Shown here in pieces: positions 20,611 to 45,200 of a stretch of DNA of 54,296 nucleotides; positions within the stretch are counted from its first letter, which is position 1, and every line of letters begins with the position of its first letter. The DNA lies in assembly GCA_016281385.1 (NCBI GenBank), contig JAEEIN010000137.1:1-54296 (forward strand), read 5' to 3'. The stretch is from Lachnospiraceae bacterium (GTDB lineage: Bacteria; Bacillota; Clostridia; Lachnospirales; Lachnospiraceae). The notes under the pieces are model-generated. The model ran no database searches. It had not been told where the DNA came from and saw only the letters and a program-made list of their open reading frames with translations. Both the position numbers and the translations under genes were made by a program.

Positions 20611-20619
20611 TGATAGAAT
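20591..20619 (+). promoter_or_regulatory. Predicted promoter for tRNA-Gly and downstream genes
   Basis: TTGTTA (20591-20596), 17-bp spacer, TAGAAT (20614-20619), about 17 nt before the mature tRNA 5' end. Confidence 0.6.
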
Positions 20620-20635
20620 TTCTTTACGGGTTATT

Positions 20636-20706: not shown

Positions 20707-20731
20707 TTTTTTGTTTATAAAGGAGAAGTTT

Positions 20732-21016: not shown

Positions 21017-21039
21017 CAAGCCCGGATCTGGAGGAAAAT

Positions 21040-22137
21040 ATGACCTGTAATTCGGGACTTTCCGACGGTATAAAGAAAAAGCACATGAAGGAGCTGGCCG
21101 GATATGTGGACAAAACCTTGCGTCCGCATCCCGTGTTACGCTCCTTGTTTTTTGAAGTTACGACACTTTGTAATGAGCATTGTAAACACTGCGGAAGCAG
21201 ATGCGGAGATGTAAAGGCCGACGATCCTCTGACTTTGGATGAATGGAAAGGGATATTGGATAGGGTTAAATCTGAATTTAACATATCCGAACTGCGGCTT
21301 TGCATCACCGGAGGAGAGCCTTTGCTGATGCCTGAGTTCTTTGAGCTTATGGCCTATGCCCATTCCCTCGGGTTTACATGGGGAATGACCAGCAACGGAA
21401 CTCTTATAACAAAAGAGGCTGCGCTTAAACTTAAAGAAACGGGGATGAGCACTATCTCAATAAGTGTGGACGGCCTTGAAGAAAGCCACGACATCTTCAG
21501 ACAGTCCCCGGGAAGTTACAGAAAGACCATGGAAGGCATTGCGAATCTTCTGGAAACGAAAGCCTTCAAACATGTTCAAATAACAACTGTTGTTCATAAA
21601 GGAAACTATCATGAACTGGATGAAATGTATGAAGTCTTTAAAAAGACGGGAGTACGTTCCTGGAGAGTTATCAACATAGAGCCCATTGGCCGTGCCAAGG
21701 ACGATCCCGAGCTGATGCTTGATAAGGAGCAATACCGTGGACTGATAGATTTCATCAGAAAACATCGGTTTGAAGATAAGATGCAGGTCAGCTACGGCTG
21801 CAGTCATTATCTCGGAGTGGAAGACGAGAGGGAAGTAAGGCCCTGGTACTTTCTCTGCAATGCGGGCGTATACACCGCAAGCATCATGAATAACGGAAAC
21901 ATCGGGGCATGTCTTGATATAGAGAGACGTCCCGAAGTGATATTCGGGAATATAAGGAAAGACAGCCTTAAGGAGGTCTGGGAGAAGGGCTTTGAGATAT
22001 TCAGAACCGATTTCAGAAAGACCGGCCAATGCAAAAGGTGTAAACAATACCGCTTTTGCAGGGGTGATTCTTTCCATACCTGGGATTTTGATAAAATGGA
22101 ACCCGGGATCTGTATGTATAAGATGCTCAATGAATAA
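21040..22137 (+). CDS. Radical SAM/SPASM domain protein (resembles the rSAM/lipoprotein-system family)
   Basis: EVTTLCNEHCKHCGSRCG (CxxxCxxC), ITGGEPLLMPEF, C-terminal CNAGV…GACLD…CKRCKQYRFCRGD SPASM-like Cys cluster. Confidence 0.9.
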   Translation: MTCNSGLSDGIKKKHMKELAGYVDKTLRPHPVLRSLFFEVTTLCNEHCKHCGSRCGDVKADDPLTLDEWKGILDRVKSEFNISELRLCITGGEPLLMPEFFELMAYAHSLGFTWGMTSNGTLITKEAALKLKETGMSTISISVDGLEESHDIFRQSPGSYRKTMEGIANLLETKAFKHVQITTVVHKGNYHELDEMYEVFKKTGVRSWRVINIEPIGRAKDDPELMLDKEQYRGLIDFIRKHRFEDKMQVSYGCSHYLGVEDEREVRPWYFLCNAGVYTASIMNNGNIGACLDIERRPEVIFGNIRKDSLKEVWEKGFEIFRTDFRKTGQCKRCKQYRFCRGDSFHTWDFDKMEPGICMYKMLNE

Positions 22138-22172
22138 AGATCAGGCTTTTCAGAAGGAGGACGAGTGATTAA

Positions 22173-24887: not shown

Positions 24888-24897
24888 TGAATGACGA

Positions 24898-24928
24898 CCC
24901 GCGCACTTCGGTGTGCGGGCCTTTTTGT
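24898..24928 (+). terminator. Rho-independent terminator after GH115
   Basis: CCCGCGCAC-TTCG-GTGTGCGGG (one G·T wobble) followed by CCTTTTTG. Confidence 0.85.
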
Positions 24929-25061
24929 TTTTATATCATTTCGCAAATATTGACTAATTGTACGCAAGAGATAACGAGCAAAGAAAAAGCCCTTTATTTA
25001 TACTGTTCCCATAACTGAAAATAGGTTAAAAACCTAAATCGTATCGTAGAGGGAGAGTTAA

Positions 25062-28240: not shown

Positions 28241-28522
28241 ATGGATATGAGCGAAGGAAACTATCCGGGCTTTGTTTTACGACATGCCGCGGGGATGTGG
28301 AACCTTTTAGATCTTAGCCATCCTGAGTTTCCCTACAAAGAGCCGCTGCGACTCAATGAATCCGGAGCCATTATATGGCAGGAGATTGAACGCGGCATGA
28401 ATTTGGATGCAATATCGCAGGAACTTGTGAAAGAGTACGGAATCTCTCGGGAAGAGGCGGATTCCGATCTTAGAGTTTTCTGCGAAAAACTTAAGGCATT
28501 TGGTGTGCCTTTAGACAATTAA
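28241..28522 (+). CDS. PqqD-family peptide-chaperone/RRE-like protein
   Basis: GMWNLLDL…PLRLNESGAIIWQEIERGMNLDAISQELVKEYGISREEADSDLRVFCEKLKAFGVP; PqqD winged-helix pattern. Confidence 0.85.
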   Translation: MDMSEGNYPGFVLRHAAGMWNLLDLSHPEFPYKEPLRLNESGAIIWQEIERGMNLDAISQELVKEYGISREEADSDLRVFCEKLKAFGVPLDN

Positions 28523-28533
28523 AGGGGTTTTGT

Positions 28534-30717
28534 ATGAATATTTTAATTGCAGGTGGTGCAGGAACCTTCCTTAATAATATCCTGATCAAACTTCACAAGG
28601 AGGGACATAAGGTATCCGTTCTTACCGGTAATCGTTTCGCCGACAAGGATGCCTATCAGAAGAATTTCGAAGTCTACAAGTTCCAGTATGATGCGAGCTG
28701 CTTAAACGAGATCTTCGAAAGTGTATCCCCCGATGTTACCATATTCATGGGAGCATTTGATACCAACTTTGAATGGAAGAACGAGGAAGCCGATTCGGTA
28801 AAATATACGGCTTCTTTGGCAAATATTCTTATGGGTTACGCCATGCGCGGTAAGGGAAGATTTATCTATCTTTCCTCACATGAAGTGTTTGGCGATAATC
28901 ACGATGCGGATATCACCGAGAATCTTATGACATCTCCCGACGGATTCCGTGCCCAGTCCATCTATCAAGGCGAGCAGATGTGTGAAAACTATCGTTCCAA
29001 CCGTGATATGGATATCGTAACGGTCCGCTTCGATCACCTTTATTGTATTCCCGAGAAGCGCGCGGATATCAAGGATGTTGTTACATCCATGTGCCTTGAA
29101 GCTTTGGAGGAGAAGACGATCCATTATGCAAAGAGCACATTCCTTTCGCCTTTATATGAAAATGACGGCGTAGAGGCCCTTTACAGGATCATTTCATGTG
29201 CAAAACACAACGCAGACGTATATCATGTATCCGCTTCAAATCAGATCTCCGAGGAAGAACTGGCAAATCTCGTCAGAGACAACATGAACCCCGAGTGTGA
29301 TGTTATCTCTACACCCGGTACTTCCGCATACAGATGCGTCCTTTCAAACCGTCTGTACGAGAGCGAATTCGGAAACCCCAGATTCATGGATCTTGCGACC
29401 ATCGTAAAGCGTATCGCAACCACAATGAAGAAGAAAGCATATGTATTCCTCACCGATGAGGAGACAGGCCTTTCCTTCACACAGAGACTTAAGAAGAAGC
29501 TGGGCTGGTTCATCAGCACCATGATCCCCTTCCTTGAGAATGTGATCATCTTCATCCCCTGCTTCATGTTCTATAACAGAGCTGCGGAGAGTTCTTATTT
29601 TGCAAGGCTTGATATCTATCTTCTCTATGTGCTTCTGTTCGCTATCGTATACGGACAGCAGCAGGCAACGCTTTCGGCCCTTCTTGCGGTTGCGGGTTAT
29701 TTCTTCAGAAATACCTATGAACAGACCGGATTCAGACTTCTGCTTGACTCCAATACATACGTATGGGTTGCTCAGCTGTTCATCGTAGGCCTTTCGGTAG
29801 GTTACCTTCGCGATCAGATCATTAAGCTGAGAAAAGAGAACGAAGAGGAGAAGGAATTCTTAAAGCAGCAGATCGAAGACATTCAGGTCATCAACTCCAC
29901 AAACGTCCGCGTTAAGGACGTTCTTGAAACACAGGTTGTTAACCAGACTGATTCCGTAGGAAAGATCTACGGCATCACATCTTCGCTTGATCAGTACAGC
30001 CCTGAAGAGGTTCTCTTCTATGCAGCTCGTACCGTGAGCGAACTTATGAAGACCGAGGATGTTGCCATTTACCAGGTTTCCAATGCCGACTACGCAAGAT
30101 TGTTCTCTTCAACCTCTGCAAAGTCCAGAGTACTTGGTAACTCCGTCCGCTATACCGAAATGGGTGACTGCTACGAAGCCCTCAGAAACCGCAGGGTATA
30201 TATCAACCGTAAGATGGACGGTCGTTACCCCCTTATGGCCAATGCCATTTTTGAAAATGATGAGATGCAGATGATCGTAATGCTTTGGGGTCTCTCATGG
30301 GAGAATATGACTCTCGGCGAGGCAAACAAGCTTGTCATCATCAGTGCACTTATACAGAACGCAGTCCTTCGCGCTAACCGTTACATCCTTGCTCTTGAGG
30401 ATCAGAGATACGAGGAAGGCACGAAGATGCTTGAAAAGGACAGCTTCAGAACTCTGCTTGATGCGTTCTTAAAGGCTGAGAAAGAAGATCTTACCGAATG
30501 TTCGGTAATCAGGGTTAAAACAGATCAGTCCAACAGAGCGGACGTTATCGGCATCATCGAAAAGTCCTTAAGAACATCGGATTATCTCGGAAATCTCGGA
30601 GGAAGCGAGGTATATGCACTTCTTTCCAATACTACGGAAGAGGGCGCAACCTTCGTTCTCAACAGATTCCTTGAGAAGGGCCTTGAGGCCGCAATAGTGG
30701 AGGAAGGAACGATATGA
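28534..30717 (+). CDS. pelD: PelD-like c-di-GMP receptor fused to an N-terminal SDR/epimerase-like domain (SDR-TM-GAF-degenerate GGDEF)
   Basis: GGAGTFLNNI Rossmann motif; 3-4 TM helices; GAF region; C-terminal RTSD-YLGNL-GGSEV I-site plus degenerate GGDEF; next to PelE/F/G-like genes. Confidence 0.8.
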   Translation: MNILIAGGAGTFLNNILIKLHKEGHKVSVLTGNRFADKDAYQKNFEVYKFQYDASCLNEIFESVSPDVTIFMGAFDTNFEWKNEEADSVKYTASLANILMGYAMRGKGRFIYLSSHEVFGDNHDADITENLMTSPDGFRAQSIYQGEQMCENYRSNRDMDIVTVRFDHLYCIPEKRADIKDVVTSMCLEALEEKTIHYAKSTFLSPLYENDGVEALYRIISCAKHNADVYHVSASNQISEEELANLVRDNMNPECDVISTPGTSAYRCVLSNRLYESEFGNPRFMDLATIVKRIATTMKKKAYVFLTDEETGLSFTQRLKKKLGWFISTMIPFLENVIIFIPCFMFYNRAAESSYFARLDIYLLYVLLFAIVYGQQQATLSALLAVAGYFFRNTYEQTGFRLLLDSNTYVWVAQLFIVGLSVGYLRDQIIKLRKENEEEKEFLKQQIEDIQVINSTNVRVKDVLETQVVNQTDSVGKIYGITSSLDQYSPEEVLFYAARTVSELMKTEDVAIYQVSNADYARLFSSTSAKSRVLGNSVRYTEMGDCYEALRNRRVYINRKMDGRYPLMANAIFENDEMQMIVMLWGLSWENMTLGEANKLVIISALIQNAVLRANRYILALEDQRYEEGTKMLEKDSFRTLLDAFLKAEKEDLTECSVIRVKTDQSNRADVIGIIEKSLRTSDYLGNLGGSEVYALLSNTTEEGATFVLNRFLEKGLEAAIVEEGTI

Positions 30718-31622
30718 CTTGGAGTGTAAGATTTTTTATAATCTTTCTTCTGTTGAATTTTCTCCTTACGGCATGTTACCTCATCGTTGCCATCCACTTC
30801 AGGAAGATCAAACGCCATCTTGCATATGCCCGGGCTGTGGTAATGCTTCTTGTTCCGGGAGCGGGCACTTTGCTGATGGTTCTCGGATGGTTCGGATATG
30901 AATATGTATTCCGTAAGGATGTAGACCTTTCCGACGTTATCTTCAGTAAGGAGAGAGGCCGCGAACTTGTAAGGTCCAACGAGGAGATAGAGCGTAACGT
31001 TGTTTCCCTCGAGGAAGCCATTGCAGTAACGGATAAAGCGGATTTGAGAAGCCTGGTAATGGGTGTTGCCCAGGGTGATTACGAGGATTCCCTTTCAGCT
31101 ATTTCCCTTGCACTTAACAGTGAGGATTCAGAAACTGCCCACTACGCCGCTTCACTTTTACAGGATGCGATCAACGATTTCAGACTTAAGGTCCAGAAGG
31201 GCTACAACAAGGTTCAGAAGAGAGACGAAGAACTTGAAGATACCGCAAAGGGTCTTATCAAGTATATGAACAAGGTTCTAGTTCAGAAGGTATTTACGGA
31301 TCTTGAACAGAGATCCTTCACACATATTCTGGAGGATACCGCACAGATCCTTCACGAGGAGCATCCGGAGGCACTTACCAGCGAACTTTACGAGATCGTC
31401 TGCTTAAGACTTCTGGAGATCAAGGATTTCGAAAAGTGCGAGCTTTGGGCAAACAGAGCAATGGCTCAGTTCCCCAACACCCTTTCATCCCACACCTGCC
31501 TGATCAAATACTTCTTTAACAGCGGGCAGAAGGAAAGATTCTTTGAGGCACTTGACAACTTAAAGAAATCGTCTGTGGTAATCGATAAGGAGACGCTGGA
31601 ACTTATAAGGGCATTCCAGTAG
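30714..31622 (+). CDS. pelE: PelE-like membrane protein (two TM helices plus helical/TPR-like region)
   Basis: N-terminal TM pair, long alpha-helical cytoplasmic region, position directly after pelD-like gene (ATGA overlap). Confidence 0.75.
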   Translation: MTWSVRFFIIFLLLNFLLTACYLIVAIHFRKIKRHLAYARAVVMLLVPGAGTLLMVLGWFGYEYVFRKDVDLSDVIFSKERGRELVRSNEEIERNVVSLEEAIAVTDKADLRSLVMGVAQGDYEDSLSAISLALNSEDSETAHYAASLLQDAINDFRLKVQKGYNKVQKRDEELEDTAKGLIKYMNKVLVQKVFTDLEQRSFTHILEDTAQILHEEHPEALTSELYEIVCLRLLEIKDFEKCELWANRAMAQFPNTLSSHTCLIKYFFNSGQKERFFEALDNLKKSSVVIDKETLELIRAFQ

Positions 31623-31657
31623 AGAAGGACATCAGGATTAAGGAGGATATACAGTTT

Positions 31658-33982
31658 ATGTCTATGACAGTTATTACTGTGCTTCAAATAACGGGCATAT
31701 ACTGTGCATATCTGCTTATAACGGTCTTTTTGCCTCATTTCGCCTTCGGAAAAACGGTCAGGTTTAAGAACCGATATGAACGTTTTCTCTTTTATGTGAT
31801 CTCGGGCAACTTTTATATGATCAACCTGGTATATCTGCTTGAGTTGGTGCATATTTCCTATCGTTTAACATTGATCCTGTTTACAGTCGTTCCGGCAATA
31901 ATCATTAAAGTCAGACTTGAGAGGATCCCTCTGGGAAAATACATTCTTGATATATGGGACACCTTAAGAAAGCTGACCGGCGGACAGCTTAAAGTAAAGA
32001 ACGTAAGTGATCAGATAGAGCCGCTGCTTGCACAGAGAAGAAAGAAGTTCTTTGCAAAGATAAAGAAGGTATATCTGAACAATATAGTCGATGTTCTGCT
32101 GACACTTACACTGCTTTTATGTATTCTTTATTTCTTCGGATCGCATCTTCTGAAGACATACGGATATAAAGCCTCCGACCTCATAGTACATAACTACTGG
32201 ATCAACAGCTTAAGTGAAAACAGGCTGTTCTGCGCCGGTATTTATCCCTTTGGTTTTCACAACACCGTGTATTACATACACAAGGTTTTTGGCATAGATA
32301 CGGTTGCTTTATTGAGAACGTTCAGCCTTCATACGGTGACGTTCAATATACTGATGCTTTTCTGTGCACTTAAGCTTCTTTGCAAGTCGAGATATATACC
32401 GTATATCGGCGCGTTTATGTATTCCGTGGTCGACTGCTTCTTGTCCCATACATACGGCAGATATAATGCTCCCCTTCCTCAGGAGTACGGCATTATGTTC
32501 ATATTCCCCGCCATTTATTGCGGGTTCGCATATTTCAGGGCACAGAGAAGGGAAAAGCGCGGTTTATACTCAAAGGACTGCTATCGGTATCTTGCCGGAT
32601 TCGCCATGAGTTTTTCGCTTTGTATCACGACTCACTTTTACGGCGTTATGGCGGCAGGAATTTTTGCGTTTTCAATGGCCACCGGGTTTGCGGTATGGCT
32701 CTTCAGAAAGACCTACTTTAAGCGCGTTATGTGTACGATCTTTATTACCATGGGCATTGCGCTTACGCCCATGTTCCTGGCAGCTGCCGAAGGCATAGAG
32801 ATCGAAGGATCCTTGAGATGGGGGCTGAGCATCATCTTCGGTGTAAAGGGCGATGATGAAGCGGACAAGGAAAACACCGAAACGGAAGAACAGACAGAAA
32901 TTGTTGAAGAAGTTACGGAAGAGGTTGAGGAAGTCGAGGAAGAAGTAGATCGAACGACTCGTCTCCAAAGATTTATAGAGACTTATTCCGAAAAATACGG
33001 CAGTATCGCCGGCCCGCCCGTAGCTTATGTGGAATTGTTAAAAGCCGATCTTAGCTCCAACGTATTCAAGGAGAAGGATCAGAGTCAGATATATGTAGTG
33101 CTTATAGGATATGGAACCCTGCTTGTTTTGGGCGTAGTGATAATGCTTGGAAAAAGGGATAAGATGTACGGTGCCGTGCTTTTGTCAACGGGAATCCACA
33201 TGGTAGTGATCACAACCGTACTGTGCGCAGGTGATATAGGTATTCCGATGCTGATGGACCCTGCCCGAGCCAGCATATATGTGGCTTACAGTGCTGCCTT
33301 TGCAATCCCGATGTTTGTAGATGCAGTCATGTACTTCATCCTTGGATGGGGCACTAAAAAGAAATATGTTTTGTCGATTGCATCATTTGCATTGCTTGCA
33401 TTCTGGGGCGGAATGGTAATACGCACCAACTACATAAGAAAACCTCTTTCTCCCGGTGGAATGGAGACAAACGGCGCAGTTGAGTGCCTTACCAGAATTT
33501 CCATGGAAGAAGAGGACTATTCCTGGACAATATGTTCGGCCAACGATGAAGGCCGTATGGTCTATGACCACGGTTTCCATTATGAGCTGATAGATTTCCT
33601 CAGAGGAATGGAATATGTTGCGGACAAGGGCCGAGTTCGTATGCCTACCAAGTATGTATATATCTTCGTGGAAAAAATCCCGATAGATTACTTCGCGACC
33701 TATTGGGGAAGCGGACAATCCGTATCGAAATTCGGCGCAAAACGTGACCTGCCTTTGGGTAGATCTTTGGGATTGTACACCAAGGCAAATCGATGGATAT
33801 GTATGTCGAGACTGTATTATTGGGCGCAGGCATTTATGGAGCTTTATCCCAATGAGATGTCAGTATATTATGAGACAGACAATTTTGTATGTTACAAGAT
33901 CATACAAAATCCATACAGGTTATTTAATTTTGCAATAGACTATGAATACAACAGCACTAACCCTATGGATGTAGAACCATAG
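31658..33982 (+). CDS. Large polytopic membrane protein (774 aa), GT-C-like topology, unknown function
   Basis: About 12 hydrophobic segments; acidic interdomain stretch DDEADKENTETEEQTEIVEEVTEEVEEVEEEVDR. Confidence 0.65.
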   Translation: MSMTVITVLQITGIYCAYLLITVFLPHFAFGKTVRFKNRYERFLFYVISGNFYMINLVYLLELVHISYRLTLILFTVVPAIIIKVRLERIPLGKYILDIWDTLRKLTGGQLKVKNVSDQIEPLLAQRRKKFFAKIKKVYLNNIVDVLLTLTLLLCILYFFGSHLLKTYGYKASDLIVHNYWINSLSENRLFCAGIYPFGFHNTVYYIHKVFGIDTVALLRTFSLHTVTFNILMLFCALKLLCKSRYIPYIGAFMYSVVDCFLSHTYGRYNAPLPQEYGIMFIFPAIYCGFAYFRAQRREKRGLYSKDCYRYLAGFAMSFSLCITTHFYGVMAAGIFAFSMATGFAVWLFRKTYFKRVMCTIFITMGIALTPMFLAAAEGIEIEGSLRWGLSIIFGVKGDDEADKENTETEEQTEIVEEVTEEVEEVEEEVDRTTRLQRFIETYSEKYGSIAGPPVAYVELLKADLSSNVFKEKDQSQIYVVLIGYGTLLVLGVVIMLGKRDKMYGAVLLSTGIHMVVITTVLCAGDIGIPMLMDPARASIYVAYSAAFAIPMFVDAVMYFILGWGTKKKYVLSIASFALLAFWGGMVIRTNYIRKPLSPGGMETNGAVECLTRISMEEEDYSWTICSANDEGRMVYDHGFHYELIDFLRGMEYVADKGRVRMPTKYVYIFVEKIPIDYFATYWGSGQSVSKFGAKRDLPLGRSLGLYTKANRWICMSRLYYWAQAFMELYPNEMSVYYETDNFVCYKIIQNPYRLFNFAIDYEYNSTNPMDVEP

Positions 33983-34000
33983 GAAAAAGGGGAAAATGGA

Positions 34001-35842
34001 ATGATCTCACGCAGAAATTACTTTATCATCCTGATTGTAATGGGGATAATATTTGTCCTCTTCCAATTCAGCCAGTTTGCCAGATCGGCAGGGAATGATT
34101 TCAACGTAAACAAGTTTATTGAACTTGAATTACCTGAAAAAAGGCCCTGGCAGCAGGTATCTTTGACAGTGGACGATGATCTGCCCTGGGGCGATAAGGA
34201 ATATACCGTATTTGTCGGAGATAAAGGATCAAATATCGGAAGTATCGTTACGCAGTGGACTTATTATACCAAGAGAGATATCCTGATCGCAGACAGTCTG
34301 ACTGATTTTGCAAAGAAAGAGCATGCCCTTCCGGAATTTGTCATTATCGATTCCACCTGTGTGGATTTTGACACAGAGACGCAGATCCTGACAGATATGT
34401 TAAATACCGGTAATTCGGTGATCCTTTGCAATCTTCCGGACGTTAGTGTTATTCAGAACAATCTTGAACTTAAATCCGTATTGGGAATCGACTTCATCAA
34501 AGAAGAAAGTGTGACGGTTGAAGGAATCAAGCTCTTTGCCGGTTTCCTTTTAGGAGGCGAAGAAATATATGAGCCACAGAAGAAGGAGGAGGAGAAGAGA
34601 CAGGATCTGGAGCTTACAATGCCCTGGTATATTCCTACCGGAGGAACCAAGACCTATATGGTCGGCGTTATGGACGAATATTTCGATAGCGTGATCGAGG
34701 ATTATGAGTTTAAAAACGATTATTTTCCTGCAATCATATGGAGAAAGAGCACACCTAACGGACAGATCTTTTGTGTAAACGGAGACTATATGTCAACCAC
34801 CACCGGACTTGGAATTTTAAGTGCGATGAGTTACGAACTGAGCAGCTATCAGTTGTACCCGGTTGTAAATGCACAGAATACGCTGGTTATAGATTTCCCT
34901 CTTATGGCGGATGAAAACGACGAAAGATTCAATGAGATCTATTCCAGATCTTTCAACGAGTTTCAGACAAATGTTATCTGGGCTTCACTTATGGCGCTTG
35001 GCGAGCAGAACGATCTTCAATTCACCTGCTTCATGTCACCAAAATACAATTATTCGGATCCCGCACAGCCCAGTTACGACGAGTATAATACACTCCTTCA
35101 GCTGTTTAATGAAAAGGATGCCGAAGTTGGTCTGTCACTTGAACATGCCGACGGCATTACACTTCTTGAAAAACTTAAGGTTGATAAGGATTATTACGAT
35201 GGAATAGAAAACAGATATCAGAATTCCAGCGCATTCATGGACCTTGCGGACATTGATGAACTGGATGAGGCTGTTAAGGTAGCTTATGTAAGAAATGTTA
35301 GGACCATCGCCTGCGATGCAGATGTTCAGCTTCCTATCCTGAGCTATCTCACCGATGATATCACCTTACAGAGCCTTACAAGTAACACCCGCTATTTTAC
35401 ATACTCTAAGGATCTTATGCTTAAGAGTATCGAAACGGTTCTGGGATATGATAACGCAAAGCTTAACATGAGTCCCGTTATCTGGCCGGAATCCGTTGAT
35501 GATCAGTGGGAGAACATCTACATCGACATGGCTAGTTCGCTTGCAACTTACTGGAGAAGATTCAAGGTATTTGACAATACTACACTTACCGAAAGCGATC
35601 AGAGAGTAAGAACCTTCTTAAACATTGATTCTTCTTCATCCATTGATGGTGATGTGATCACTCTCAACGTTTCCGGAGCAGACGGAAATACGACCTGGTT
35701 CATGCTTCGTACCCACAATGCAAAGATCGATGAGATCGAGGGAGCAACATATAAGAAGGTTGAAACCGATGCTTACCTTCTTACGGTAAATTCGGAAACT
35801 GTAACTATCAGATTAAAGAACACACAGAATATTAATAACTGA
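34001..35842 (+). CDS. DUF2194-like membrane-anchored protein (possible divergent carbohydrate deacetylase-like PelA substitute)
   Basis: N-terminal TM; NTLVIDFPLMADENDERFNEIYSRSFNEFQTNVIW…; position between PelE- and PelF-like genes. Confidence 0.6.
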   Translation: MISRRNYFIILIVMGIIFVLFQFSQFARSAGNDFNVNKFIELELPEKRPWQQVSLTVDDDLPWGDKEYTVFVGDKGSNIGSIVTQWTYYTKRDILIADSLTDFAKKEHALPEFVIIDSTCVDFDTETQILTDMLNTGNSVILCNLPDVSVIQNNLELKSVLGIDFIKEESVTVEGIKLFAGFLLGGEEIYEPQKKEEEKRQDLELTMPWYIPTGGTKTYMVGVMDEYFDSVIEDYEFKNDYFPAIIWRKSTPNGQIFCVNGDYMSTTTGLGILSAMSYELSSYQLYPVVNAQNTLVIDFPLMADENDERFNEIYSRSFNEFQTNVIWASLMALGEQNDLQFTCFMSPKYNYSDPAQPSYDEYNTLLQLFNEKDAEVGLSLEHADGITLLEKLKVDKDYYDGIENRYQNSSAFMDLADIDELDEAVKVAYVRNVRTIACDADVQLPILSYLTDDITLQSLTSNTRYFTYSKDLMLKSIETVLGYDNAKLNMSPVIWPESVDDQWENIYIDMASSLATYWRRFKVFDNTTLTESDQRVRTFLNIDSSSSIDGDVITLNVSGADGNTTWFMLRTHNAKIDEIEGATYKKVETDAYLLTVNSETVTIRLKNTQNINN

Positions 35843-35869
35843 TAGATAAAGATACACAAAGGGGAATAT

Positions 35870-37288
35870 ATGAAGATTTGTATTGTAGCCGAAGGATGTT
35901 ATCCATATGTAGTAGGCGGTGTATCCGGATGGATACACAGTATGGTCCAGGCTTTTCCTGAACACGAATTTGTCATTCTCGGAATCATACCCGATCGTGA
36001 ACAGAGCGGTAAATTCGAATATCATTTGCCGGACAATGTAAGCGCTGTTTATGAAGCATATCTGGATGATTTTGACTGGAGCGAAACAAGAAAAGAAGGA
36101 CGACGCACAAAGTTAAGAAAATCGGAATACAGGGCACTTCGAAGCCTTATCATGAACAGGCGTGTTGAATGGGATGCGATCTTTGATATGTTTTCAAAGG
36201 ATACCTTCTCAATTGACGACCTTTTAATGGGTGCCGACTTCTTAAAGATCGTTACGGAGTATTACAACACGAATTATCCGGAAATCGTATTCTCGGATTT
36301 CTTATGGACCATGAGATCCATATATCTTCCGCTTTTCCTGATACTTAAGACTCCGTTGCCTCAGGCAGACATTTATCACTGCGTTGCCACCGGCTATGCC
36401 GGAGTTTTGGGAGCTATGGCAAACAGACTTTACGGAAGCAAGCTTCTTCTTTCAGAGCATGGTATTTATACCCGTGAACGTGAGGAAGAAGTCATCAAAG
36501 CTACATGGGTAAAGGGTATTTACAAAAATATCTGGATCGATCAGTTTAAGAAGATGTCCATGGTAGCATATGAAAAGGCAGAGATCGTAACAAGCCTTTA
36601 TGCACATGCAAGAGAGCTTCAGATCGAACTTGGATGTCCCGAAGAGAAGACCAGGATCACTCCCAACGGTATAGATGTTGAAAGGTTCCGAAATATTCCC
36701 GGTAAGCAGCCCGAGGATGAGGGATGGTTCAATATCGGAGCAGTATTGAGAGTTGCTCCCATAAAGGATGTTAAGACATTGATACAGGCATTTTCTTTTG
36801 CAAAGTCCAGATGCGCAAATCTGAAGCTCTGGATAATGGGTCCTACCAACGAGGATGAGGACTACGCAGCGGAATGTTTTGATCTCGTGGACGCCCTGGG
36901 GGTTAAGGATATAGAGTTCACCGGAAGGGTTGATGTTTCACAGTATCTGGGAAGAATGGATGCGACCATTCTTACAAGTATAAGTGAAGGACAGCCCCTT
37001 ACCATTCTCGAAAGTTATGCAGCGCATGTACCTACCATTGCAACGGACGTAGGAAACTGCCGCGGACTTATCTATGGTGAGGATGACGATGAATTAGGGG
37101 AATCAGGTATTCTTACTCATATCATGAACGTGAGTGAGATCGCCGATGCGATGGTATATCTTGCATCCAATGAAGAAGAACGCCGCAAGATGGGCGATAT
37201 CGGATTCAAGAGACTGAATTCGAAATACCGCATCGAAATGATGAGAGATACATATCGTAGCATTTATGAGGAATTAGGGAATAAATAA
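35870..37288 (+). CDS. pelF: PelF-like GT4 glycosyltransferase (DUF3492 + Glycos_transf_1)
   Basis: MKICIVAEGCYPYVVGGVSGWIHSMVQAFPEHEFVILGI…GIYTREREEE…RITPNGIDVERF…SISEGQPLTILESYA…ATDVGNCRGLIYG. Confidence 0.93.
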   Translation: MKICIVAEGCYPYVVGGVSGWIHSMVQAFPEHEFVILGIIPDREQSGKFEYHLPDNVSAVYEAYLDDFDWSETRKEGRRTKLRKSEYRALRSLIMNRRVEWDAIFDMFSKDTFSIDDLLMGADFLKIVTEYYNTNYPEIVFSDFLWTMRSIYLPLFLILKTPLPQADIYHCVATGYAGVLGAMANRLYGSKLLLSEHGIYTREREEEVIKATWVKGIYKNIWIDQFKKMSMVAYEKAEIVTSLYAHARELQIELGCPEEKTRITPNGIDVERFRNIPGKQPEDEGWFNIGAVLRVAPIKDVKTLIQAFSFAKSRCANLKLWIMGPTNEDEDYAAECFDLVDALGVKDIEFTGRVDVSQYLGRMDATILTSISEGQPLTILESYAAHVPTIATDVGNCRGLIYGEDDDELGESGILTHIMNVSEIADAMVYLASNEEERRKMGDIGFKRLNSKYRIEMMRDTYRSIYEELGNK

Positions 37289-37300
37289 GGATAAATAACT

Positions 37301-38740
37301 ATGGCAGGAATAGGAATAAGACTTAATAAGATCTTTAACAAAAATTCTATTGCATCGAAGCTGGTAGGTTGTGGATACAGTGTGGTTGTAACCATTGCAC
37401 CCATGCTCATAATCATAACGGTAGTAGTTCTGATGCAGCTTCTGTTAGGTTTTTCAAAACTTGACTTCTATACCAGAGAATTGTATTCATGTACGGTTCT
37501 TTACATATTCGTATTTGCCTTGCTGACAACTTCGCCCTTTAACGCCGTTGTATCAAGGTACATGTCGGATATCATTTACGAGGAAAGATATGAAGACATA
37601 CCTCCCTGCTTCTACATGGGACTTGCTCTTAACACGATCCTTTCCTTCATACCCGCAGCATTTTTCTGCTGGAGAGAGTATCACATAGGCGGTATAAATA
37701 TCTGGTATGTATTTGCCGGATTCACCGGATACATGTGCATGATATTTACCTTCACCGTTATGCTTTACCTTTCCATCTGTAAGGATTATAAGAAGATCTC
37801 CGGTTTCTATGTCCTCGGAATGATGGTAACCCTTGTTCTTTCACTTATCCTTCACTACATATTCGGAGTTCGTACGGATATTGCGATGCTTGTTTCACTT
37901 GACGTGGGACTTCTGCTCATCGCCGTACAGGAATTCTCTCTTTTCAGAAGATACTTTAAAAAGAACTCGGGAAACTATTACGGAATGGTTCCCTATCTTA
38001 AGAAATACTGGCAGCTGGTTGTAGCCGACTTCTTCTATATCTTCGGTCTCTATGTTCACAACTTTGTATTTTGGACTACGGACTGGCACCTTATCGTTGC
38101 GAAGAGTTTTGTATGTAACCAGCCCTACGACATGGCAAGCTGCCTTGCGATGTTTACAAACATTACCGCCAGCGTAATATTCATTACCCGTGTTGAAATG
38201 TATTTCCACACAAAGTACAAGGCATACTCCGAAGCCGTTATCGGTGGAAGAGGTCTTGATATACAGAGCGCAAAGCAGAGAATGTTCCGTCAGCTTATGG
38301 AAGAGATCATGACACTTGTTCGTGTACAGTTTATCGTTACCACACCTGTTTTCATGATCGCCATGATAATCCTTCCCAGATTCGGATTCGGAGGAAACAC
38401 CATGAGAATCTATCCCTGCCTTACGGTCGGATACTTTATCATGTTCATTATGTATTCCTTCATAATCTTCCTGTATTATTTCAACGATCTTACGGGAGCT
38501 GTTGTAACATCCGTTACTTTCTTTATCGTTACGATGCTTGCAAGTATTGTGGCAACTCACCTTCCCGTGGTTTGGTTTGGTACCGGCCTTGTTGTAGGTG
38601 CAGTTGCGGGATTCTCGGTAGCTTACTATCGAATGAGACGTATGGAAAAGACATTGGATGTGCATATTTTCTGCAGCGGCAGCATTCTCAAAAAGGGCCG
38701 CGGAAAGATGCCTTCAAACCTTGTTTACGAGAGGAAATAA
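37301..38740 (+). CDS. pelG: PelG-like polysaccharide transporter
   Basis: MAGIGIRLNKIFNKNSIASKLVGCGYSVVVTIAPMLIII; about 12 TM; adjacent to pelF. Confidence 0.9.
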   Translation: MAGIGIRLNKIFNKNSIASKLVGCGYSVVVTIAPMLIIITVVVLMQLLLGFSKLDFYTRELYSCTVLYIFVFALLTTSPFNAVVSRYMSDIIYEERYEDIPPCFYMGLALNTILSFIPAAFFCWREYHIGGINIWYVFAGFTGYMCMIFTFTVMLYLSICKDYKKISGFYVLGMMVTLVLSLILHYIFGVRTDIAMLVSLDVGLLLIAVQEFSLFRRYFKKNSGNYYGMVPYLKKYWQLVVADFFYIFGLYVHNFVFWTTDWHLIVAKSFVCNQPYDMASCLAMFTNITASVIFITRVEMYFHTKYKAYSEAVIGGRGLDIQSAKQRMFRQLMEEIMTLVRVQFIVTTPVFMIAMIILPRFGFGGNTMRIYPCLTVGYFIMFIMYSFIIFLYYFNDLTGAVVTSVTFFIVTMLASIVATHLPVVWFGTGLVVGAVAGFSVAYYRMRRMEKTLDVHIFCSGSILKKGRGKMPSNLVYERK

Positions 38741-38742
38741 AA

Positions 38743-39126
38743 ATGGGTCCCAGTATTATTTTACGAGTTATTCTCATTTTATCCGGCGGTGCGATGATGC
38801 TCATTACCGTCGGCAGCCTTGCAAAAAGAAGGATGAACGAATCCTTCTGTCTTGCCTGGAGCATCATTTCTTTGGCATTGTTTGCGGCAGGTATTGTTTT
38901 AAGACCTGCTGAATGGCAGAAGTACATAAGCGGAAAGGCCCTGGCCCTGGTACTTATAATCTTCACCGCAATCTTTTACGCAGCATATTTTACGAGTCTT
39001 AAGGTTTCCGAGATCACAAGAAAGAATCAGGAACTGGCCATTCAGGTTTCGTTACTCAATCAGGAAAATGAACGTATATTGAGAAGGCTGGCCGAAGTTA
39101 CCGGAAAAGATGTACGGGAATTATAG
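38743..39126 (+). CDS. DUF2304 family small membrane protein
   Basis: Three TM helices then SEITRKNQELAIQVSLLNQE coiled tail; ATG at 38743 preferred over the 38572 ORF start, which lies inside pelG. Confidence 0.75.
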   Translation: MGPSIILRVILILSGGAMMLITVGSLAKRRMNESFCLAWSIISLALFAAGIVLRPAEWQKYISGKALALVLIIFTAIFYAAYFTSLKVSEITRKNQELAIQVSLLNQENERILRRLAEVTGKDVREL

Positions 39127-39129
39127 TGT

Positions 39130-40341
39130 ATGAAAAAAATACTGTTTGTTATTAATACTCTTGGCCTCGCAGGTGCCGAAAAGGCTCTTATCGAGATGCT
39201 CAGACGATTGGACACTCCGGATTACGAAGTGTCTCTTTTCGTTTTAATGAATCAGGGCGAATTACGGGAAGAACTTCCGTCAAACGTCAAATTGTTGAAC
39301 AAATGCTTTGATGACTGTCCCATTCACGGAGAAGAAGGTAAGGCACATTTAAAGAAGCATGTTATGAAATCCCTGTTCAAAAGGTGCGCATTCCTGAGAT
39401 GTTTTCCTTATATGACGGTCAATGCATTCAGAATGCTCTTTAAAGGCGGTTTAAAGGTCGATAAGCTGCTTTGGCGTGCCATGGCAGTAAGTGCGGACCG
39501 CTTTGACGAGCACTATGATCTGGCTGTTGCTTATATTGAGGGCGGTGCGGCGTACTATGTCAAAGAGTTTGTAAATGCGGACAGGAAAGCAGGGTTTATA
39601 CATATCGATTACAAAGAGGCAGGATATACTCGAAAGCTTGATAAAAACTGTTACCTCTCATTTGACCGGATATTTACCGTATCGGATGAGGTTAAAGGAG
39701 TATTTTCCGAGGTTTATCCCGAATTAACCGACAGGATCGAAGTATTCCATAATCTTTTGGATATCGAAGGAATAAAGCATAAGGCTGAGTTACCCGGCGG
39801 ATTTGACGACGACTTTGACGGATTGAGAATTGTAACGGTTGGACGTCTTAATCTGCAGAAATCATTCGATGTATCCATAGATGCCATGAAGCTTATAAAG
39901 GATGCGGGTATCAGGGCGAGATGGTATGTTCTCGGCGAGGGTGATCAGAGAGAATTCCTTGAGTCACGAATAGAAATGTTGGGTCTTAAAGAAGATTTTA
40001 TTCTTCTTGGCAATCGTGCAAACCCTTATCCGTATGTTAAGCAATGTGACCTGTACGTACATGCTTCGAAATTTGAAGGAAAGAGTATTGCAATCCAGGA
40101 AGCCCGGATTCTCGGTAAGCCCATTGTTGTCACCGACTGCAGCGGAAACAGGGAACAGATCAATGATGGAATGGACGGAAGGATATGCGACTTTGACAGC
40201 AATGCGATCGCCGAAACCGTTATTGAAATGCTTAAGGACAAGGATAAAGCAACACAAATGGGAATTGCGGCCGCTAACCGCATTTTGGAAGAAGAAAAGA
40301 ATTCTGCTGATCTGCAGAAGCTGATAAATCTTTTAGCATAG
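39130..40341 (+). CDS. GT4 family glycosyltransferase
   Basis: LFVINTLGLAGAEKALIEML…VTVGRLNLQKSFDVSIDA…HASKFEGKSIAIQEARILGKPIVVTDCSGN. Confidence 0.92.
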   Translation: MKKILFVINTLGLAGAEKALIEMLRRLDTPDYEVSLFVLMNQGELREELPSNVKLLNKCFDDCPIHGEEGKAHLKKHVMKSLFKRCAFLRCFPYMTVNAFRMLFKGGLKVDKLLWRAMAVSADRFDEHYDLAVAYIEGGAAYYVKEFVNADRKAGFIHIDYKEAGYTRKLDKNCYLSFDRIFTVSDEVKGVFSEVYPELTDRIEVFHNLLDIEGIKHKAELPGGFDDDFDGLRIVTVGRLNLQKSFDVSIDAMKLIKDAGIRARWYVLGEGDQREFLESRIEMLGLKEDFILLGNRANPYPYVKQCDLYVHASKFEGKSIAIQEARILGKPIVVTDCSGNREQINDGMDGRICDFDSNAIAETVIEMLKDKDKATQMGIAAANRILEEEKNSADLQKLINLLA

Positions 40342-40350
40342 GGGAAAATT

Positions 40351-41160
40351 ATGGAACAGAAGAGAAAAGAGGTACTTATAATAATTCCGGCCTATAACGA
40401 GGCCAAGACCATTGAGCCCGTATTGGACGCTCTGCAGTCACCGCCCATATCAGATGTGTGCGATGTGCTGGTCATGAACGATGCGTCAAAGGACGGAACT
40501 CAGTATATATGTAAGCGTCGCGGGATTCCCGTAATAACCCATGTTTATAATTTGGGTTACGGCTCCGGTCTTCAGGTCGGTTATAAGTATGCCTTCAGAA
40601 GGGGATATGACTATGTCATTCAGATGGATGCAGACGGACAACATGACCCTTCCAATGTTCTGAAAATATATGATGCTTTGAAAACAAAGGACGAGAAGGG
40701 CGGATATCCGGATATAGTCATCGGTTCCAGATTTGTTGACGGTGCCATTGCTTTCCCTGTGCCCATTTCCAAGAAGATAGCCTTTGTGCTTTTCAGAACT
40801 CTCATCAAGTGGGCCACCGGTCAAAAGATAATGGACCCCACTTCAGGTTTACAGGGACTCAGCAAGAGAACATTCTGGTATTATTCCAGATATTCCCATT
40901 TTGATGATAAATATCCGGACGCAAATATGCTTATGCAGATGAAGATGTTGGGATATAATGTTAAAGAGATCCCTTCGGTAATGTATGCGAGAACGGAAGG
41001 AACAAGCATGCACTCCGGAATCATCAAGCCCATGGTCTATATGTTCAGAATGGCATTTTCGATCATTGCCGTATGGGCCAGGGTAAGAATTTACGGTATG
41101 GATAAAGGAGCTATAAATGAGCAGGCAATCATCGAAGACTTACAAAAGAGCGTCTTTTAA
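40351..41160 (+). CDS. GT2 family glycosyltransferase (dolichol/undecaprenyl-phosphate sugar synthase-like)
   Basis: IIPAYNEAKTIEPVLDAL…VMNDASKDGT…VIQMDADGQHDPSN…VIGSRF. Confidence 0.92.
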   Translation: MEQKRKEVLIIIPAYNEAKTIEPVLDALQSPPISDVCDVLVMNDASKDGTQYICKRRGIPVITHVYNLGYGSGLQVGYKYAFRRGYDYVIQMDADGQHDPSNVLKIYDALKTKDEKGGYPDIVIGSRFVDGAIAFPVPISKKIAFVLFRTLIKWATGQKIMDPTSGLQGLSKRTFWYYSRYSHFDDKYPDANMLMQMKMLGYNVKEIPSVMYARTEGTSMHSGIIKPMVYMFRMAFSIIAVWARVRIYGMDKGAINEQAIIEDLQKSVF

Positions 41161-42454
41161 GGCACCTCGATTAAAGGAAATTTCTGATGAACTTGTTAAT
41201 CCTTACAGAGGCTGGTATCAGATACACACCTTTAAGCTCGATGAAGATATAGATATGACTGACAGGGAGTATACCCTTAATCACACGGATACACTGGCGC
41301 TGATCCTTGTGGATATCAGTGCCTACAGGAGTAGCGCACTTGATGACAAGGCAATCAATAATCTAAGGAATATATTTGCATTCTTCAGAGATTACAGACT
41401 GGATATGATCGTGCGAGTAGTATATGACACCGTGGGAAAATGTCTTGAGACGGAGCCCTCGGAGGAAACAACGATCATGGAGCACATGGATCAGCTGGTT
41501 CCCATAATGAAGGATTACGCCGCTAATATTTTCGTTTATCAAGGCCTTCTTATCGGTAACTGGGGTGAGATGCACTCTTCAAAGTTTCTTTCTCCCGCCC
41601 GCCTCAGCCGACTGGCTACGGACTTCCTTGAGAACATTCACGGAACGGCTTTCCTTGCGGTACGTCGTCCGGCTTATGTTCGCATTCTTTTTCCCGAAGG
41701 AGAGGATTTAAGGCAGAACAGGGTAGGTATCTTTGATGATGCCATCCTTGCTTCACCCACCCATTTGGGAACCTTTGGTGAGAAACCTGCCAAGGATGTA
41801 AGGCGTGAACAGTCATGGCTTCCCAAGGAAGAAATAAAGTACGTTTCGTCTCTCTGCGACCGTGTTCCTTATGGTGGTGAAGGACTTTATTCGGAGGAAA
41901 AGGATGCCATTTCTTCCGTAAGGCATTCGCTGAAAGCAATGTCGGAGTATTTCTCCACTCTTCATGTTACATACTTAAACAGAATACATGACATCAACTT
42001 CGTAGAGCATTTAAAGACTCTTAAATGGAACGGCAGAGATCTCTACAGAGGAATGGACGGCTACGAGTACATAGGCAGACATCTCGGCTACCGTTTCGTT
42101 CTCAGAAAGGTGGCATGTTCGTTGCTGGAGAGCGACAACAGCATTCTCCGCTGGGATATAACCATTGAAAATATAGGTTTTGCCCGTATTTTCTTTAAGA
42201 ACGGCTGCACAATGCGTGCAACGGATATTTACGGAAATGAAGTTGTTTTGGAACTGGCTGACTGGATCGAATTAAACCAGATAGCATCCGGGGAGAAGCA
42301 TACTTTCGTGTGCATGACACCCGTAGTTGTGGGCAAGGTTTATCTTTCTTTCACCAAGGAAGATACAAAGCAGGCAATTTATTTTGCCAATCGTAATCAG
42401 ATTGACAGTGAGTTCAACTCTGAAATCTATTTGGGAAGTATTAAATTACATTAA
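41117..42454 (+). CDS. DUF4874/DUF4832-like protein, putative glycoside-hydrolase-type barrel
   Basis: NPYRGWYQIHTFKL…LALILVDISAYR…GLLIGNWGEMHSSKF…VRRPAYVRILF…GGEGLYSEEKDAISS; AAGGAG RBS at about 41104; overlaps the GT2 end by 44 bp. Confidence 0.75.
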   Translation: MSRQSSKTYKRASFKAPRLKEISDELVNPYRGWYQIHTFKLDEDIDMTDREYTLNHTDTLALILVDISAYRSSALDDKAINNLRNIFAFFRDYRLDMIVRVVYDTVGKCLETEPSEETTIMEHMDQLVPIMKDYAANIFVYQGLLIGNWGEMHSSKFLSPARLSRLATDFLENIHGTAFLAVRRPAYVRILFPEGEDLRQNRVGIFDDAILASPTHLGTFGEKPAKDVRREQSWLPKEEIKYVSSLCDRVPYGGEGLYSEEKDAISSVRHSLKAMSEYFSTLHVTYLNRIHDINFVEHLKTLKWNGRDLYRGMDGYEYIGRHLGYRFVLRKVACSLLESDNSILRWDITIENIGFARIFFKNGCTMRATDIYGNEVVLELADWIELNQIASGEKHTFVCMTPVVVGKVYLSFTKEDTKQAIYFANRNQIDSEFNSEIYLGSIKLH

Positions 42455-42459
42455 GCAAA

Positions 42460-44007
42460 ATGGGTAATAAAACCGAATCCAGAACAGAATATTCGGCGAG
42501 AAATATAACATTTGCAATGGTGGGAAGGGTTGCGGCCCTTCTTATGGGGTTTGTTTCGCGTGTAGTATTCACCCACACACTCGATACGGAGTATGTGGGT
42601 GTTAATGGTCTGTTTACCGATATCCTCCACGTTCTGTCACTGACGGAGCTGGGCTTCGGAACCGCCATCACCTATGCCCTTTATAAGCCAATCGCCGAGG
42701 ACGATATAGAAAAACAAAAATCCTATATGAAGATCTACCGCCTGTTTTACCATATTGTTGCGGTGATCGTACTTGCAATGGGATTATGCGTCACACCCTT
42801 CCTGGATGTGATAATCAAAAACAAACCGAATATACCGCATCTTACGCTGATCTACCTGATGTATCTTGCGAATACGGTGATTTCCTATCTTCTTGTTTAT
42901 AAGAGGACGCTGATAGATGCCCATCAGAAGAGTTACATCGGAGAGATCGTCAGGACAACCTCCTGGGTCATACAGACTCTCATACAGATCATAATTCTTG
43001 TTGTTACAAAGAACTTTATCCTTTATCTTTCCATAAACCTGCTCAGTACGTTGTGCTTTAACCTGGTTATATCCTTTATAGCGGAAAAGATGTATCCCTA
43101 TCTTAAGGACAAGGAAGTGGAGCCCCTTGAGCCCGAGGAGAGAAAGGATATCTTTAAAAATGTGGGAGCACTGATCCTTAACAAGATCGGAGATGTTGCG
43201 ATAAACAACACGGATAATATCCTTTTGTCTTCCCTTGTTGGCATTGTGGCAGCGGGGTTATATTCAAACTATTATCTGATCATTGATTCAGTGAAGATGG
43301 TCTTTGCCCAGATCTTTAACGGTATTACCGCAAGCGTGGGTAATCTGGGAGTTTTAGAGAATAAAGGCCGGGTTAAAAAGATATTTGAAGGCTGCTTTTT
43401 CATGGGACATTGGATGAACGGAGTGGCCGCCATAGCCCTTTATGAGGTCCTGAATCCCTTCGTAGCCATGAGCTTTGGTGAAAACTATGTTTTCGAAGCA
43501 AACATAACGCTTATATTATGTATTAATTTCTACATAAACGGAATGAGACAGGCGACTCTGGCATTCAGAAATTCCCTGGGATTATTCTATTACGACAGAT
43601 ATAAATCCATTCTGGCAGCTATCATCAACCTGGGTGCTTCCATTGTTCTCGGATTATGGCTGGGTACCGTGGGAATCTTCCTTGGAACTCTTGTAAGCCT
43701 GATAACCACATTATTCTGGATAGAGCCCTATGTGTTATATAAAAAGAGGCTCGAAAGTCCGGTATTACCCTATTTTGCCAAGTATTTCATCTATTCGGCA
43801 TCCACTGCGGGGCTTTGGCTTGTTTGTGATCTTATATGCAGGAATATACAGGGAGCACATTTTAAGGTTTGTCTGCTTAGGGGTATCATTTGTGTTGCTG
43901 TCGTGGATCTGGGATTTCTTTTATTGTTTTTCAGAACAAAGGAATTTAAACTTCTATGGAACAAGGCAATGTTTATTCTCGGGAAAAAACTGAAAAAGGC
44001 GCAATGA
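42460..44007 (+). CDS. Wzx-like oligosaccharide flippase/polysaccharide transporter
   Basis: RNITFAMVGRVAALLMGFVSRVVFTHTLDTEYVGVNGLFTDILHVLSLTELGFGTAITYALYKPIAEDD; polytopic. Confidence 0.92.
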   Translation: MGNKTESRTEYSARNITFAMVGRVAALLMGFVSRVVFTHTLDTEYVGVNGLFTDILHVLSLTELGFGTAITYALYKPIAEDDIEKQKSYMKIYRLFYHIVAVIVLAMGLCVTPFLDVIIKNKPNIPHLTLIYLMYLANTVISYLLVYKRTLIDAHQKSYIGEIVRTTSWVIQTLIQIIILVVTKNFILYLSINLLSTLCFNLVISFIAEKMYPYLKDKEVEPLEPEERKDIFKNVGALILNKIGDVAINNTDNILLSSLVGIVAAGLYSNYYLIIDSVKMVFAQIFNGITASVGNLGVLENKGRVKKIFEGCFFMGHWMNGVAAIALYEVLNPFVAMSFGENYVFEANITLILCINFYINGMRQATLAFRNSLGLFYYDRYKSILAAIINLGASIVLGLWLGTVGIFLGTLVSLITTLFWIEPYVLYKKRLESPVLPYFAKYFIYSASTAGLWLVCDLICRNIQGAHFKVCLLRGIICVAVVDLGFLLLFFRTKEFKLLWNKAMFILGKKLKKAQ

Positions 44008-45200
44008 CCACCGGGTTAAGGGATGATGAAATCTGGCTTTGTTCGGCATTAAAGGCTTCGATCAATGGTTCGGAATTTTCAAAAGCCGATGAAACGGTTG
44101 AAAGGGAAGTCCTCAAGAATGATAAAGGCCGTGGTGTGCTTGCCCTTCTTTATCCGTTTTTTGATGACATATCGGATCTCGGGCTAAAAAAAGCTGTTGA
44201 ATACTCGGCAAAGAATAATGCAGTCAGTTGTTATCGTCTCTTTCAGAATACTCGGTATATTCTTGAAAAACTGGAAGCTGAAGGAATAGATTGTGCAGTT
44301 CTTAAAGGCGTTGACCTGGCAAGCAGATATCCCGTTCCGGAATACAGAGGGTTTGCTGATATAGATCTTTTTATCCGAGACAGGGAGCAGATCGACAACG
44401 CCGTACGGATAATTGAAAACTGTGGATTTGAAAAGGAAAAAGAACAAAGCTCCATACATCACATAGCCTTTTTGAATCAGGAACGGATTGAGATAGAACT
44501 CCATACGGATATGGTCCGTCCTTTTGACAGCGAGGCCGTCAACAGCAGGATCGCAGATATATATAAGTCAACGGACTATAGTTTCTTTGAAAGGGAATTG
44601 TTCGGAGTCCGATTCAAAGTACTTCCGGATTCATTGAACGGCTTTTATCTTCTTTTACATACACTCCAGCATTTTCTGGCTGCGGGCTTCGGATTGAGGC
44701 TTCTGCTTGACTGGATGGCCTTCTGGAACGGTGTGGGGGATGATAAAGCATTTACGGAATTTAAGGCTCATTGTGATTCATGCAAGGTCAGAGGATTTTC
44801 TGATGCCATAACCGGCATATGTGTGAAATATCTGGGGATGTCTCCCGAGAGAGCGGAAAAGATCATGAGTCCCGGCTATTTGCAGGCTTTGGATAAAAAT
44901 GAAGTTATAGATAAACTGGCGCGAGAAGTGTTTGATGCCGGCCGGTTTGGCGAAGGCACCGGAAGACTTGTAAATTTGAGGAATCCTTCGATCTTTGGAT
45001 TGATCAAGGAATTTCATCATCAGACCAGGATCAACTATCCCAAAGCCTCAAGAATTTTTCTTATATGGCCGATATTATGGATAGGTTCGTTGATCCGTTT
45101 TATGAAGAATAACAAGACTGTGAGACATACCGGCGCAAAAGAGATCATCGGAAATGCCAAAAAGCGAAGCCGCCTTACAAAGGAAATTGGGTTATGGTAA
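44004..45200 (+). CDS. Nucleotidyltransferase family protein (NTP_transf_5-like)
   Basis: GIDCAVLKGVDLASRYPVPEYRGFADIDLFIR…HHIAFLNQERIEIELHTDMVRPF; ATGA overlap at 44004 (ORF track start 43956). Confidence 0.82.
   Translation: MTTGLRDDEIWLCSALKASINGSEFSKADETVEREVLKNDKGRGVLALLYPFFDDISDLGLKKAVEYSAKNNAVSCYRLFQNTRYILEKLEAEGIDCAVLKGVDLASRYPVPEYRGFADIDLFIRDREQIDNAVRIIENCGFEKEKEQSSIHHIAFLNQERIEIELHTDMVRPFDSEAVNSRIADIYKSTDYSFFERELFGVRFKVLPDSLNGFYLLLHTLQHFLAAGFGLRLLLDWMAFWNGVGDDKAFTEFKAHCDSCKVRGFSDAITGICVKYLGMSPERAEKIMSPGYLQALDKNEVIDKLAREVFDAGRFGEGTGRLVNLRNPSIFGLIKEFHHQTRINYPKASRIFLIWPILWIGSLIRFMKNNKTVRHTGAKEIIGNAKKRSRLTKEIGLW

Follow-up and report, generated by a model that had tools for sequence, protein, structure and literature searches.

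The 54,296-nucleotide window analyzed here, contig JAEEIN010000137.1 of a Lachnospiraceae genome (GCA_016281385.1), carries a pel operon of the Gram-positive type, in which a gene for a 774-amino-acid (aa) polytopic membrane protein stands between pelE and the gene for a homolog of the deacetylase PelADA. From sequence comparison, this operon appears to belong to a distinct clade of pel loci, and its PelADA homolog is predicted not to deacetylate the product. The reading that we favor, and consider probable from the sequences and from analogy with characterized systems, is that the operon makes and exports Pel in the usual way, and that the polymer is then decorated outside the membrane with a sugar carried by polyprenyl phosphate, instead of being deacetylated. 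We base this on the secure family membership of PelF and PelG together with the signs of control by cyclic di-GMP (c-di-GMP); on the loss of the PelADA active-site residues and the similarity of the 774-aa protein to GT-C-type glycosyltransferases of the PMT_2 family; on a GT2 and a DUF2304 gene that accompany the GT-C candidate and are interleaved with pel genes in some loci; and on GT-C homologs beside PelF-like genes in other bacterial families.

The core of the operon consists of six plus-strand open reading frames, which a preliminary description made from the sequence alone had read as consecutive SDR-PelD-like, PelE-like, 774-aa, DUF2194-like, PelF-like and PelG-like genes. The open reading frames of the window match the coordinates given there and are real and tightly spaced (successive gaps of -4, 35, 18, 27 and 12 bp), and the family matches agree with those names. 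PelF (472 aa; 35870..37288), a GT4 glycosyltransferase that would by family be the polymerase, scores 376.5 bits against NCBIfam NF038011, where the curated cut-off is 100, and matches DUF3492 at 2e-78. PelG (479 aa; 37301..38740), by family the inner-membrane exporter, scores 463.5 bits against Pfam PF16933 (cut-off 29; 1e-138). Both thus lie well inside the families to which they had been provisionally assigned. PelD (727 aa; 28534..30717) begins with an RmlD/Epimerase domain, a degenerate short-chain dehydrogenase/reductase (SDR), followed by transmembrane (TM) segments, a GAF-like region and a degenerate GGDEF domain that is matched weakly. The PelE-like protein (302 aa; 30714..31622) is recognized by position, orthology and its predicted N-terminal TM helices. 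The Pfam scan yielded no family of their own for PelD or PelE; both match orthologs beside pelF-pelG in 40 related pel loci, in a few of which PelD is cut or split.

Gram-positive pelDEADAFG loci were described by Whitfield et al. in 2020, with PelADA, a deacetylase without a hydrolase domain, encoded between pelE and pelF, and with an N-terminal SDR domain, judged inactive, in clostridial PelD (PMC7112168). The SDR-fused PelD, which the window shares with clostridial pel operons, and the absent hydrolase domain are therefore ordinary; the latter was considered as an oddity and rejected on this ground, and a gene with a DUF4832 domain lies within the unit. With the loci of Bacillus cereus ATCC 10987, S. 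intermedius and clostridia the window also shares the D-E-(PelADA)-F-G order, here retained with one insertion, the 774-aa gene, as well as a degenerate GGDEF domain with an RxxD motif and the lack of the outer-membrane components PelB and PelC. By the membership of PelD, PelF and PelG and by gene order, we assign the operon to the Gram-positive-type Pel loci. The RxxD c-di-GMP I-site (RTSD in the window) is kept in all 38 aligned PelDs of both locus types distinguished below, whereas the GGDEF motif has degenerated and the SDR YxxxK motif has no lysine, so that control by c-di-GMP, as proposed in the preliminary description, is likely. The host genome (2.67 Mb in 193 contigs) has 28 GGDEF matches. 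Neither finding named as a possible refutation in the preliminary description, PelF and PelG outside their families or a genome devoid of c-di-GMP signaling genes, was therefore observed.

Matches to PelG were found in 54 of the 299 genomes of the bacterial family, and 40 loci of ~20 kb were compared with the window (41 in total). This survey of pelF-pelG synteny, which the preliminary description had suggested, resolves two types, with 18 type-A and 23 type-B loci. In type A, the genes pelD-E-ADA-F-G are followed by CotH (17 of 18 loci) and usually by VTC and DUF4956. Genes for CotH, a poly-phosphate polymerase (VTC), DUF4956 and DUF4832 are also carried by the streptococcal and clostridial pel loci of PMC7112168. 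No type-A locus has, within 20 kb, a GT-C, GT2 or DUF2304 gene of the families seen in the window. Type B, which includes the window, combines the same core with a GT-C homolog and a PelADA that is predicted to be dead, and in the window DUF2304, GT4 and GT2 genes occupy the place where the CotH/VTC/DUF4956 accessory module would be expected. The GT-C gene is present in 23 of 23 type-B loci, mostly between pelE and pelADA and in some 3' of DUF4832; in one locus (L070) it lies just past the first ~20-kb stretch read. DUF2304 and GT2 genes are both present in 21 of the 23, compared to none of the 18 type-A loci. The most divergent type-B loci are ordered DUF2304-pelD-pelE-GTC-GT2-pelADA-pelF-pelG, with the module interleaved with the pel genes. 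Outside this bacterial family, genome G476 (locus L135) has the type-B architecture as well. On a PelG tree, types A and B fall on opposite sides of one long branch with support of 100/100.

The DUF2194 protein (613 aa; 34001..35842; PF09960, 2e-18) has a single N-terminal TM helix and lies in the usual Gram-positive PelADA slot. A profile from a mixed alignment of types A and B matches the structure of B. cereus PelADA (9ZAU) at 1.3e-58 over positions 39-598, and the type-B and type-A profiles match each other with 99.9% probability across 551 columns. These two matches rule out the idea that an unrelated protein has taken the place of PelA. A profile of type-B proteins alone reaches 9ZAU only weakly (0.0067), and the homology of the type-B proteins therefore leans on the bridge through type A. 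On these alignments, we take DUF2194 and PelADA to be one family and the window protein to be a PelADA homolog. The preliminary description had the 774-aa and DUF2194 proteins replacing PelA; that claim is not upheld, as the DUF2194 protein sits in the normal slot between pelE and pelF and the 774-aa protein is an addition. It also concluded that the polymer may not be classical Pel; this stands, although for a different reason, namely the loss of PelADA residues and the presence of the GT-C/GT2/DUF2304 module.

This loss is extensive. In B. cereus PelADA, a CE26 deacetylase of 610 aa, the relevant residues are D262/D263, H350/H354 and H488, with P405, R458 and D490/D491 (PMC13254593). The corresponding motifs in type A are DDFP, HGYNH, VPPS, PR and HPDD, and an intact copy is found in 17 of 17 type-A loci with full-length genes, the gene being in pieces in L087. 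The window protein, a full-length homolog with the same single N-terminal TM helix and the same slot, keeps none of these residues; at the motif sites it reads IDFP, VGLSLEHAD (with the next segment deleted), AFMDL, SLTS and NMSPV. The catalytic and metal residues are missing in all 24 type-B proteins, the window's included, and the type-B alignment holds no conserved Asp/His set able to rebuild the metal site. The window PelADA homolog is thus predicted to be catalytically dead. Since every type-B locus nevertheless has the gene, with its TM helix and a similar length, it has likely been kept for a structural or polymer-binding role. In three type-A loci (L085, L086 and L089), the intact copy is adjoined by a tandem paralog of PelADA whose catalytic motifs have degenerated.

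The 774-aa protein (31658..33982) has no match in the Pfam scan and ~12 predicted hydrophobic segments. Ten residues are invariant across its 23 homologs (D174, H178, W181, G194, Y196, P197, H201, R268, P274 and E276), and they fall in an outer-loop-like stretch with the motif SDxxVHxxWIN. When its profile was compared by hhalign with those of PMT_2 proteins (GT-C) from the same bacterial family, the matches reached probabilities of 88-93%, with P values between 3e-6 and 4e-8; reversed profiles, PelG and Wzx, used as decoys, gave 0.1-2.6%. The local alignment starts at the S-D174 pair, which meets the D-E stretch of PMT_2, and makes this invariant aspartate, in what would be the first outer loop, the candidate for the acidic catalytic residue. 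This evidence supports the 774-aa protein being a GT-C-type membrane glycosyltransferase, and hence a putative Pel-decorating enzyme. DUF6541 was tried as a GT-C reference and dropped, because its matches were too few and weak. A plasmid search for this GT-C gave no match.

The companion genes point in the same direction. The GT2 (40351..41160) has no predicted TM helix, and its best PDB match is a dolichol-phosphate mannose synthase (5MLZ, 6e-9). The DUF2304 protein (127 aa; 38743..39126) has three predicted TM helices and matches PF10066 at 2e-8, over the cut-off; DUF2304 has been called typical of GacJ-like proteins (PMC8327497). Together they may form a polyprenyl-phosphate sugar synthase with a small membrane partner. 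In the biosynthesis of the group A carbohydrate, GacI and GacJ make GlcNAc-phosphate-undecaprenol, the Wzx-type GacK flips it, and the GT-C enzyme GacL attaches the sugar to rhamnan (PMC10821137, PMC8035078). By homology, the window unit has a counterpart of each of these: a GT2 without a TM helix, a separate three-TM DUF2304 protein, a Wzx-like flippase (42460..44007; PF01943, 1e-10) with a possible GacK-like role, and the GT-C candidate. Unlike the Gac genes (PMC8035078, PMC10821137, PMC8327497), the module sits in a synthase-dependent Pel operon under probable c-di-GMP control, not in a rhamnan cluster, and no Pfam model covers the sequence family to which its GT-C belongs.

A mechanism can be proposed along these lines. 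Binding of c-di-GMP to the PelD I-site would activate PelF, and PelG would export a chain that, judging from the protein families, should be of the alpha-GalNAc type; the usual product of a Gram-positive Pel locus is an alpha-1,4-GalNAc polymer that is partially deacetylated. The PelADA homolog might stay beside PelG as a dead polymer-binding or docking subunit. Meanwhile, the GT2, aided by the three-TM DUF2304 protein, would load a sugar onto undecaprenyl phosphate, the Wzx-like flippase would turn the lipid-linked sugar outward, and the GT-C enzyme, as its family membership and co-occurrence suggest, would transfer the sugar to the emerging Pel chain.

An alternative is that the product is a different surface polymer, such as a capsule, a teichoic-acid-like polymer or a glycan linked to the cell wall. 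The pel-like genes would then build the backbone, and the GT-C would transfer the chain or its repeat unit to a wall anchor, instead of adding side chains. For Roseburia loci that also carry GT1, GT2, PTase and NTase genes, Whitfield et al. raised the possibility of a capsule or teichoic acid (PMC7112168), and there are GT-C enzymes, among them the lactococcal WpsJ, that link oligosaccharides to polymers (PMC10821137). The window unit holds GT4 (39130..40341; PF00534, 1e-28; predicted cytoplasmic), Wzx-like and NTP_transf_5 genes, and more glycosyltransferases are encoded downstream. However, PelF and PelG are strong members of their families and the c-di-GMP site of PelD is retained. Moreover, the GT4 is common in type-B loci but not universal (absent in L093, L095 and L135); the most divergent type-B loci do without it but retain GT-C, GT2 and DUF2304, and near the core of most type-B loci there is no Wzx-like gene. 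The Pfam matches of the unit also include no wall-linking LCP-type gene. We therefore regard a different polymer as unlikely.

According to the main text of PMC7112168, the pel genes of the Roseburia loci shown in its S7 Fig lie, like those of the window, within a larger cluster that also holds GT1, GT2, NTase and DUF genes, and the authors were undecided on whether the product is Pel. The main text labels these loci pelDEADAFG and mentions no GT-C module and no loss of the PelADA site. As far as that account goes, they are probably of the same type as the window.

Under a second alternative, the product is linear Pel, either ordinary or fully acetylated. Its PelADA homolog would be dead or reassigned, deacetylation would take place elsewhere or be unneeded, and the GT-C, GT2 and DUF2304 proteins would glycosylate another target, such as a protein or teichoic acid, from genes that are merely co-transcribed. 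The linkage of the GT-C to type B could be explained by a single clade; in several loci the GT-C gene lies outside the pelE-pelADA slot, 3' of DUF4832 or on another contig; and the host genome encodes a single classical polysaccharide deacetylase domain, on a different contig from the operon. Against this, the GT-C gene accompanies every type-B locus despite its relocation, mostly inside the pel operon, and where other families have distant GT-C homologs, a PelF-like gene is again close by. We consider an undecorated linear Pel quite improbable.

Several observations weigh against the decoration of Pel that we favor. Its main weakness is that type B forms a single PelG clade, which means that the association of the GT-C with a dead PelADA does not represent many independent events; both may have been gained once and co-inherited, and type B as a whole may reflect a single ancient switch. 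Two loci outside the family (L139 and L148) have a degenerate PelADA without a GT-C, so loss of the PelADA site does not depend on the GT-C. L078 and the L070/L154 locus of genome G019 have the GT-C without GT2 or DUF2304 genes nearby. A Wzx-like gene is present in the window unit, yet none lies within 20 kb of most type-B loci. The GT-C alignment had no meaningful match when searched against the PDB and Pfam, and a single-sequence AlphaFold model of the 774-aa protein, with a mean confidence (pLDDT) of 37, was uninformative for the GT-C fold. The G019 locus is itself a hybrid, in which a dead PelADA and a GT-C are combined with CotH, VTC and DUF4956 replacing DUF2304 and GT2, as if the accessory modules were exchangeable.

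GT-C homologs were also found beyond type B. Nine genomes from other families of the class and phylum (L136, L137 and L199-L205) encode one to three GT-C homologs per locus and, no more than 20 kb away, a glycosyltransferase that is PelF-like (207-237 bits). These nine loci have no recognizable pelE or PF16933-type pelG. All of them encode u562, a polytopic protein that is fragmented in L137; its profile matches PelG with 92.8% probability over 404 columns, and not Wzx. Most also encode a conserved soluble protein (u336). They apparently represent an uncharacterized Pel-like system. Given the PelG-like match of u562 and the nearby PelF-like gene, the link of the GT-C to PelF/PelG-type synthesis recurs outside type B. 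We place about equal belief and doubt in the wider claim that a Pel clade has swapped deacetylation for decoration from a lipid carrier, with the dead deacetylase kept as a structural part, and that a PelF/PelG-GT-C partnership is recurrent and extends to the second, uncharacterized system of the other families, with its PelF-like protein and the remotely PelG-like u562.

Pseudomonas aeruginosa and B. cereus need deacetylation to form a Pel-dependent biofilm. If Pel is indeed decorated in type B, then Pel would be a family of differently finished polymers, with side chains as an alternative way of finishing the chain, and the question left open in 2020 on Roseburia-type loci would have an answer. 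Hydrolases, lectins and antibodies specific for Pel may then have different effects on type-B biofilms, and the annotation of type-B pelADA genes as deacetylases would be misleading.

The packed gene unit is larger than the six genes of the preliminary description and runs on the plus strand from 28241 to 45200. It opens with a gene for a PqqD-like protein (93 aa; 28241..28522; PF05402, 6e-12) of the type that recognizes ribosomally synthesized and post-translationally modified peptides (RiPPs); such a gene lies immediately 5' of pelD in 12 of 23 type-B and none of 18 type-A loci. Past pelG, the unit continues with the DUF2304, GT4 and GT2 genes, a DUF4874/DUF4832 gene (41117..42454), the Wzx-like flippase and an NTP_transf_5 nucleotidyltransferase (43956..45200; PF14907, 5e-29), which closes the unit with a gap of -52 bp. 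A scan for promoters and terminators found nothing beyond chance level. A c-di-GMP riboswitch upstream of the unit was ruled out, as the sole Rfam match in the window is a tRNA.

The DUF4874/DUF4832 protein of the window (3e-44 and 8e-32) has no N-terminal TM helix, is predicted to be cytoplasmic and retains a GxWGE motif. Copies without the N-terminal TM helix are found in many type-B loci (for example L059, L060, L063, L066, L067 and L080, besides the window). Such loci often have a second copy that is membrane-anchored, encoded on the opposite strand and without GxWGE, and type-A copies are mostly membrane-anchored.

Past the NTP_transf_5 gene, the window encodes a peptide starting MKEYVKPVVLESAEMTEGVFA (45326-45814) and an ABC exporter (45888-47651). 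Similar peptides of the EGVYA type occur near the type-B loci L074, L158 and L163. Together, the PqqD-like gene, the NTP_transf_5 gene, the peptide and the exporter resemble a RiPP-type cassette that is linked to pel loci of type B. Upstream of the unit, positions 14329-27227 hold a cluster of the plant-polysaccharide type with two GH53 genes, a LacI regulator, GH115 and GH3; within the same stretch lie a tRNA at 20636 and a radical SAM/SPASM gene at 21040.

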